64,000 nt of DNA from Pseudomonadota bacterium (GTDB lineage Bacteria; Pseudomonadota; Alphaproteobacteria; Rhizobiales; Beijerinckiaceae). The first letter of the stretch is position 1; each line of letters begins with the position of its first letter. Below the pieces are notes generated by a model. The model was not told the origin of the DNA. It saw nothing but the letters and a program-made list of their open reading frames with translations, and made no database searches. Below, in pieces: positions 32,710 through 52,124 of the stretch. The position numbers were made by a program, and so were the translations under genes. The stretch lies in the NCBI GenBank assembly GCA_021813805.1, contig JAKAJL010000008.1, forward strand, positions 31,206 through 95,205, given 5' to 3'.

Positions 32710-34077
32710 TCAAGCGGCCGCGGCGGTGACGCGGTTGCGGCCGGCGTTTTTGGAGAGATAGAGCGCCTGGTCGGCGCGCCGCAGAAAGGCGTCGGCCGAT
32801 TCGCCGCCCATCGAACTGGCGACGCCGATCGACACCGTGACCGGAATCGCGCGCGCGCCATTGTCGATGGGAAAGGGCGCGGCGGCGACGGCGCCGCGAA
32901 TGCGCTCGCCGACGCGCTGCGCGATGTCCAGCCGGGTGTCGGGCATGACCACGACGAACTCCTCGCCGCCCAGCCGGCACATCAGGTCGGCGCCTCGAAC
33001 CTTGCGCTTCACCCGCGCGGCGAAGGTTTTCAGCACCTCGTCGCCGGCGTCGTGGCCATAGCTGTCGTTGACCTTCTTGAAGAAATCGATATCGAGCATC
33101 ATCACCGAAAGCGGGCGGCCATTGTGCGCCGCCTGTTCCATCAGCCCGAGGAGGTGCGTTTCGAGATAGCGCCGGTTGTTCAATCCGGTGAGCGGATCGA
33201 TGACCGCCAGCTCCATCGCCGTCTTGACGTTGGAGCGCAGGGCGTCGGCATAGCGCTTCCGGCGGACCTGCGCGCGCACGCGGGCGACGAGCTCGTTGGC
33301 GTCGATCGGACGCGCCAGATAGTCGTTCACGCCGAGATCGAGGCCGCGCAGAACCCGCTGGCGGTCTTCGAGGTCGGCGAGCGTCAGGATCGGGGTGTGA
33401 CGGGTGCGGTCGAGCGAACGCAGCTGACTGCAAATGCGCAGGCCGTCGAAATCGGCGAGGCCGAGGCTGACGATAACCAGTTCGTAATCCCGTTCGGCGG
33501 CGGTGAACAAGGCCTGATGGGCCTCGGCCTCGATGTCGATCTGATAGCGGCCGCGCAAGGCGGTAAAAATGCGCTGGGCCGAATGAGGCCGGTCCTCGAC
33601 CAGCAGGATGCGCCCGCCCTGTCCGTCGTCGAGCGCATGGCTGATGGTGTTCGAAACTCCGAGATTCGCCGAGGTTTCGGCGCGGGTCCGCAATTCGTCC
33701 ATGACGAACTTCAGCCGCGCCAACGAACGCACGCGGGCGATCAGCGCGATTTCGTCGATGGGCTTGGTCAAGAAATCGTCGGCGCCCGCCTCCAGCCCGC
33801 GCACGCGGTTGGCGGTCTGGTCAAGCGCGGTCACCATGACGACCGGCAAGTGAACGGTTTCGGGATTGCTCTTGAGCCGGCGGCAGACCTCGAATCCGTC
33901 CATGCCTGGCATCATCACGTCGAGCAGGATGAGGTCGCATTCGCCGCGCTCGGAGATTGCCAGAGCCTCCTGGCCGCTGGTGGCCGTGACCACGTCGAAA
34001 TATTCCGCTGTCAGCCGCGCCTCGAGCAACTTGAGGTTGGGAATGATGTCGTCAACCACCAGAACGCGGGCGGTCAT
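32710..34077 (-). CDS. pleD: PleD family response regulator/diguanylate cyclase (REC-REC-GGDEF)
   Basis: VLVVDDIIPNLKLLEARL, second REC-like domain, RLGGEEFVVVMPDT active site. Confidence 0.95.
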   Translation of the reverse strand: MTARVLVVDDIIPNLKLLEARLTAEYFDVVTATSGQEALAISERGECDLILLDVMMPGMDGFEVCRRLKSNPETVHLPVVMVTALDQTANRVRGLEAGADDFLTKPIDEIALIARVRSLARLKFVMDELRTRAETSANLGVSNTISHALDDGQGGRILLVEDRPHSAQRIFTALRGRYQIDIEAEAHQALFTAAERDYELVIVSLGLADFDGLRICSQLRSLDRTRHTPILTLADLEDRQRVLRGLDLGVNDYLARPIDANELVARVRAQVRRKRYADALRSNVKTAMELAVIDPLTGLNNRRYLETHLLGLMEQAAHNGRPLSVMMLDIDFFKKVNDSYGHDAGDEVLKTFAARVKRKVRGADLMCRLGGEEFVVVMPDTRLDIAQRVGERIRGAVAAAPFPIDNGARAIPVTVSIGVASSMGGESADAFLRRADQALYLSKNAGRNRVTAAAA

Positions 34078-51516: not shown

Positions 51517-51730
51517 AGCGGCGTTCCGGCGGGCGTCGCGCCGCTATAGCAGGGAAAGCTCGAGTCGGGGAGGGGCCGCCGACGATCGTTCCGGCTCCAG
51601 GCCTCAGTTCGTTGCAAGACCGCTCCGCAGATAGCGGACTTCACGACAAATGTGCAGAAGCTGAAACGCGTCGCCAGCCGCGTGACCGCGAATGACAATT
51701 GATTTTATTCGCTGGGGCGTCTCGCGCGGC

Positions 51731-51940
51731 TCAATGCGCGACGGCGTCACGCGTCGGCGGATCATATCTCGGCGCGAGCCTAATGAGGTCGGCCAGCGCG
51801 AAGTCGATATGCGCCATGGTTTGCTGGCTCTGCGGCGTCGATGGCAGCAGACTCGCCTCCGCACGCGCAAATTGCAAATTGATGATCGCCCTTTCAATAA
51901 CGGACTCCATGCTCTCGCCCATTCTTATCCCCATCGGCAC
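51731..51940 (-). CDS. Small hypothetical helical protein (69 aa)
   Basis: MPMGIRMGESMESVIERAIINLQFARAEASLLPSTPQSQQTMAHIDFALADLIRLAPRYDPPTRDAVAH; perfect CtrA-like box just upstream. Confidence 0.55.
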   Translation of the reverse strand: MPMGIRMGESMESVIERAIINLQFARAEASLLPSTPQSQQTMAHIDFALADLIRLAPRYDPPTRDAVAH

Positions 51941-51957
51941 ACAACAGGATGATTATA

Positions 51958-51973
51958 TTAACTGTTCGTTAAC
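51958..51973. promoter_or_regulatory. Candidate CtrA box, exact match to consensus
   Basis: TTAA-CTGTTCG-TTAAC (TTAA-N7-TTAAC), 18-33 bp upstream of the 51731-51940 ORF. Confidence 0.65.
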
Positions 51974-52098
51974 GATGCGAATGGGCCAAGCATAACAATC
52001 TGTGGTTGAGGATAGGATAGCGTTAACGCTGCAGGAAGGGTTAACTGGCGGGTCTGCCGCTCAACATCATGTCCGCCCGCCGTTGCCGGGGGAGCGGC

Positions 52099-52124
52099 CG
52101 CCGGCGGGTTCGCGCCCGCCGGCG
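52099..52124. terminator. Strong GC hairpin downstream of ahpF
   Basis: CGCCGGCGGG-ttcgcg-CCCGCCGGCG perfect 10-bp stem next to the ahpF stop. Confidence 0.55.

Follow-up and report, generated by a model that had tools for sequence, protein, structure and literature searches.

Small proteins that modulate XRE-type repressors, among them SinI, CinS and MmaP, have so far become known one by one. In Bacillus subtilis, SinI disrupts the oligomers of the XRE regulator SinR (as summarised in PMC4149787). In Rhizobium leguminosarum, the small protein CinS binds and modulates the XRE regulator PraR (PMC4149787), and the 59-aa protein MmaP of Methylobacterium fujisawaense has likewise been shown to bind PraR (PMC10790750). 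Regulators of the PraR/CdxA type occur widely in Alphaproteobacteria, and most of their small modulators have yet to be discovered. In Caulobacter, CdxA/PraR paralogues have undergone a lineage-specific expansion (RtrA, RtrB and CdxA), and the authors of that work did not find a CinS-like protein in C. crescentus (PMC10688885).

The locus described here lies in a window of 64,000 nucleotides (the whole stretch of DNA that was analysed) and carries a gene for a mini-protein with many paralogues in Rhodoblastus. The XRE partners of this family are PraR paralogues, and its common promoter motif resembles CAAC-N5-GTTG, both of which recall CinS-PraR. By contrast, CinS is single, co-transcribed with cinI and controlled by quorum sensing (PMC4149787), whereas the Rhodoblastus mini-proteins are multiple, linked to short XREs and associated with CtrA boxes. 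As with MmaP, a small protein is tied to PraR-type regulators, with binding shown for MmaP and predicted here; however, mmaP lies behind an AHL synthase gene, while the window gene is flanked by ahpF on one side and a DDAH-family gene on the other. A search for an AHL synthase in the window genome gave no match. Profile comparison detected no homology of the mini-protein with MmaP-like ORFs (downstream of luxI genes) or with the PraR C-terminal domain; the homology comparison covered these two, and we do not claim membership in the CinS/MmaP group. SinI-SinR, from another phylum, serves as a mechanistic model alone, and a sequence relation to it is not expected. The XRE radiation itself resembles that of Caulobacter, but in Rhodoblastus a small-protein family has expanded alongside the XREs.

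A mini-protein family in Rhodoblastus

The family profile gave 65 matches in six of 11 Rhodoblastus genomes (24, 18, 9, 9, 4 and 1) and none in the other five, with matching contigs from R. sphagnicola DSM 16996, R. acidophilus DSM 142 and R. acidophilus strain MO. No convincing member was found outside Rhodoblastus among 298 genomes of the family, 398 of the order and 385 of the class (overlapping sets, about 1,000 genomes). Weak matches at class and order level (the f32/g74 genomes, G469 and G710) were not counted, as they covered the profile partially with E values of 1e-5 or worse. Comparison with the known families of Pfam, NCBIfam, PADLOC and PHROGs yielded nothing above noise, and no relatives were found in plasmid records, phage records or viral contigs. 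Judged from these searches, the two-helix mini-proteins form a family not described before and found in Rhodoblastus alone.

Furthermore, dN/dS ranged from 0.13 to 0.69 in 15 pairs of members, whether orthologues or paralogues; one of the pairs is the window gene with its nearest paralogue, on contig C48 of its own genome (0.34). AlphaFold2 (ten sequences) modelled one helix over residues 5-24 and another over 30-53, with a mean pLDDT of 85.7 and a core above 90. Among solved structures there was no specific match, the hits being generic helical hairpins (best Foldseek E 1.6). Because the ORF has paralogues, dN/dS values below 1 and a confident two-helix model, sequence and model together indicate a real gene for a mini-protein.

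The original prediction had described a 69-aa ORF on the minus strand with a CtrA box 18-33 bp upstream. Such an ORF exists (51731-51940, starting at GTG 51940), but the true start is probably ATG 51922, since the family alignment begins there at MGES and a GGGGA precedes it at 51928-51932. With this start the protein has 63 aa, and the box, whose coordinates hold, lies 36-51 bp upstream. Plus-strand ORFs at 51692 and 51699 were regarded as non-coding, since the reading frame of the family is on the minus strand, and a search for structured RNA found none. The features are as follows.

51731-51922, minus strand: mini-protein gene, 63 aa, read from ATG 51922 to a stop at 51731-51733 (family alignment, dN/dS and AlphaFold2 helices)
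51928-51932, minus strand: Shine-Dalgarno-like GGGGA 5' of ATG 51922 (sequence read directly)
51952-51981, minus strand: predicted sigma-70-like promoter TTCGCA-N18-TATAAT (10 of 12 matches; 1 found against 0.2 expected)
51958-51973: CtrA box TTAA-N7-TTAAC in the spacer of the sigma-70-like promoter (exact pattern match)
51996-52008, minus strand: CAACCACAGATTG, PraR-type operator candidate (1 mismatch to CAAC-N5-GTTG; -86 to -74 from the ATG)
52019-52030: palindrome AGCGTTAACGCT, with a TTAAC half-site at 52023-52027
52040-52045: GTTAAC half-site (TTAAC at 52041-52045)
51580-52088: segment of about 509 bp with the gene, the box and all these TTAAC sites (relatives' ahpF-DDAH intergenic region compared by blastn and alignment)
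51567-51584: imperfect 18-nt direct repeat at one segment end
52089-52106: imperfect 18-nt direct repeat (89%) at the opposite segment end

Two side observations concern the proteins themselves. Endings in -AA, like those of ClpXP-type degrons, occur at the C terminus of 17 of 54 mini-proteins and of several linked XREs. In strain MO, a mini-protein gene that seems frameshifted (L169:5889-6181) adjoins an XRE gene with a perfect CtrA box.

Linked PraR-type regulators and the proposed mechanism

A PraR-type XRE (Cro/C1-type) gene lies within 360 bp of 23 of the 54 members examined, where about 0.4 would be expected by chance, and divergent, convergent and tandem gene orders all occur. The other 31 have no such neighbour, and the window gene is among these orphans. 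The core praR/cdxA of the window genome was identified by the metK-trmB neighbourhood (downstream), the synteny used to identify praR in PMC10790750, and the linked XREs match its profile. An HTH_3 domain is present in 20 of 21 linked XREs; the C-terminal tail that follows the HTH measures 4-32 aa in 18 of the 21 against 65-66 aa in core PraR. Two of them, L008:7084 and L010:621, retain the full C-terminus yet adjoin a mini-protein gene. By profile and domain layout, the linked XREs are paralogues of core PraR/CdxA, usually shortened. Linked mini-proteins and XREs show correlated divergence (r = 0.46, with 0 of 5,000 permutations as high, p < 2e-4; r = 0.31, p = 0.002 for 18 non-orthologous pairs), a correlation that co-duplication can explain in part, as linked genes can duplicate together without contact between their products. 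In the window genome, a tandem mini-protein/XRE module (L008, contig C48) shares its contig with an extra ctrA, and TadE/TadG-like and several GGDEF/EAL genes, named from sequence, lie within 20 kb.

We propose, as a reading for which the case stands about evenly balanced, that the orphan mini-protein modulates PraR-type XRE regulators by binding, in the manner of SinI, CinS and MmaP, and that its promoter is under the XRE network and CtrA. The observations it starts from are the gene family, its co-location and correlated divergence with XREs, the enrichment of both motifs at family level and the presence of the gene at this locus in the window genome only. The mini-protein would bind one or more XREs, either core PraR or a shortened paralogue, and would alter their DNA binding or oligomerisation; we infer both the physical interaction and its antagonistic sign. 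The window promoter would contain both a candidate operator of PraR type and, in its core, a CtrA box, and the level of the mini-protein would track the XRE network, as feedback, together with CtrA activity. If this is true, Rhodoblastus, with as many as about 24 diverged copies and many of them physically linked to their probable regulators, would be a natural library for studying how such pairs become specific, and the PraR/CdxA adhesion-motility network would be tied to the CtrA cell-cycle circuit.

The same data bear on other readings. The mini-protein could be an obligate partner that provides the short XREs, in trans, with a module for dimerisation or tetramerisation, so that the pair is the functional regulator. 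The loss of the C-terminal domain in most linked XREs, the two-helix hairpin of the model and the correlated divergence all fit such a role, which we nevertheless consider unlikely: the mini-protein has no profile similarity to the PraR C-terminus, two XREs keep that terminus and still have a mini-protein gene beside them, and many mini-protein genes are solo. These solo genes would suit an independent small protein that does not modulate XREs and shares promoters and neighbourhoods with them as a regulated target, as would the CAAC-N5/6-GTTG sites upstream of many members, solo ones included; however, linked pairs diverge in correlation and the linkage recurs in every orientation, far over chance, so that this account too seems improbable to us. 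Finally, a small XRE gene adjoining another small gene, a patchy distribution and movement as a small segment would be compatible with a toxin-antitoxin or phage-defence pair with an XRE-type antitoxin. We give this very little credence, given the lack of matches in PADLOC, PHROGs, Pfam and NCBIfam, the frequent solo members, the absence from plasmid and phage records and viral contigs, and an alignment without enzyme-like residues.

CtrA boxes and candidate PraR-type operators

The modulator reading places the window promoter under both CtrA and PraR-type control. The sequence TTAACTGTTCGTTAAC at 51958-51973 matches TTAA-N7-TTAAC exactly, as originally noted, and is the window's sole match, against 0.02 expected; the two further half-sites named in the original prediction, at 52023-52027 inside the palindrome and at 52041-52045, are both present. 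Seven of the 18 TTAAC matches in the window (both strands) fall inside 51958-52045, that is, within 88 bp. Across the whole genome, TTAA-N7-TTAAC has 21 matches (about 16 sites) and its reversed control has 14, which makes one perfect match, taken alone, weak evidence. Despite this modest count, the pattern does mark CtrA-type promoters in this genome, because several of the other sites stand just 5' of ftsK, eipA, outer-membrane genes and the genes for a PAS-domain protein and a response regulator; in Brucella, CtrA targets eipA directly (PMC10787603).

In most CtrA-activated promoters the site is located at -35 (PMC11264516). The window box does not overlap the -35 element and sits between the -35-like (51976-51981) and -10-like (51952-51957) hexamers of the predicted promoter. 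This spacer position suggests that CtrA would repress from the box rather than activate, provided that the predicted promoter is real.

At the family level, palindromes with 4-bp arms were scanned upstream of 53 members and in 1,499 background tiles. CAAC-N6-GTTG ranked first (8 of 53 promoters vs 3 of 1,499 tiles) and CAAC-N5-GTTG was also enriched (5 of 53 vs 7 of 1,499), with exact CAAC-N5/6-GTTG in 12 of 53 promoters and 10 of 1,499 tiles. For PraR of two species, the published SELEX consensus is CAAC-N5-GTTG (PMC5527310), while a promoter study in R. leguminosarum gave TTGCAA (PMC4149787). The candidate operator at 51996-52008 had been overlooked in the original prediction. Its significance depends on its position and on the family, not on the match alone, since one-mismatch matches to CAAC-N5-GTTG are at chance level in the window (14 vs 15 expected). 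Exact CAAC-N5-GTTG occurs once in the window, at 34027-34039, in the early part of the PleD-type gene.

Of the 21 promoters of linked XREs, 4 (including two orthologous ones) have a perfect CtrA box at -69 to -72, against an average of 0.03 and a maximum of 1 in shuffles. Boxes with at most one mismatch are present in 10, against an average of 1.05 and a maximum of 4, although these statistics, like those for the PraR box, were selected after looking and include some orthologous promoters. Only 2 of 53 mini-protein gene promoters have a perfect box, the window gene's being one. Since perfect boxes recur at about -70 in the promoters of partner regulators, a CtrA link is supported for the family as a whole at the sequence level.

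For the window gene itself, the box could still be a chance match, in which case the protein would be real but not cell-cycle regulated; this would be compatible with any of the mechanisms above. A genome-wide count barely over the reversed control, the spacer position and the missing orthologous promoter make this a serious possibility, but we lean against it in view of the fixed position of perfect boxes in partner promoters, the clustering of TTAAC at the locus and the CtrA-type genes that other sites mark. The suggestion of a cell-cycle-regulated micro-protein is supported in part, for the protein and, at family level, for the CtrA link, while the position of the box suggests repression and not the usual activation from -35. 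Of the cell-cycle genes reported with it, the window does contain a PleD-type gene (two receivers plus GGDEF) and a single-receiver DivK-type gene, but a rough motif scan found no popZ.

Two ctrA genes are present in the genome, with 85-86% identity to CtrA of Caulobacter. The two copies share 99% of amino acids and 95.5% of nucleotides, with similarity from about 26 nt before the ATG; the extra copy is at G000:C48:20718-21416 (L163). Elsewhere, G004 has three copies, and G005 and G008 have two each (extras on G004:C9, G004:C26, G005:C48 and G008:C57). All four genomes with an extra ctrA carry the mini-protein family, and the five genomes without the family have one ctrA each.

Probable gain of a segment of about 509 bp

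Among the relatives examined, the segment at 51580-52088 is seen only in the window genome. In G007, the closest relative (93% identity in AhpF), the two flanks adjoin and the approximately 509 bp are absent, and other relatives having both flanks also lack the gene at the ahpF-DDAH site. Gain in the window genome is the simplest reading of this alignment, with repeated loss as the alternative. Because the segment is missing from the same spot in every relative examined, box and ORF have no orthologue there for the conservation comparison originally envisaged. Neither a transposase nor a terminal inverted repeat was found. For the C48 module, a clean empty site in G007 was not obtained, the left flank alone being matched.

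In strain MO, another member is present in two copies whose 94% identity is limited to 600 bp, so small mini-protein units may be mobile. A broader and rather doubtful picture would be a private Rhodoblastus network of dozens of mini-proteins and shortened PraR-type repressors, many with CtrA boxes, with extra ctrA genes, selective pairing and units of about 500-600 bp that spread. Additionally, repeated segments are common to the mini-protein loci of G004 and G008 (L051, L061, L064, L071 and L072), and one such segment near mini-protein genes resembles, by eye, the 3' end of a group II intron.
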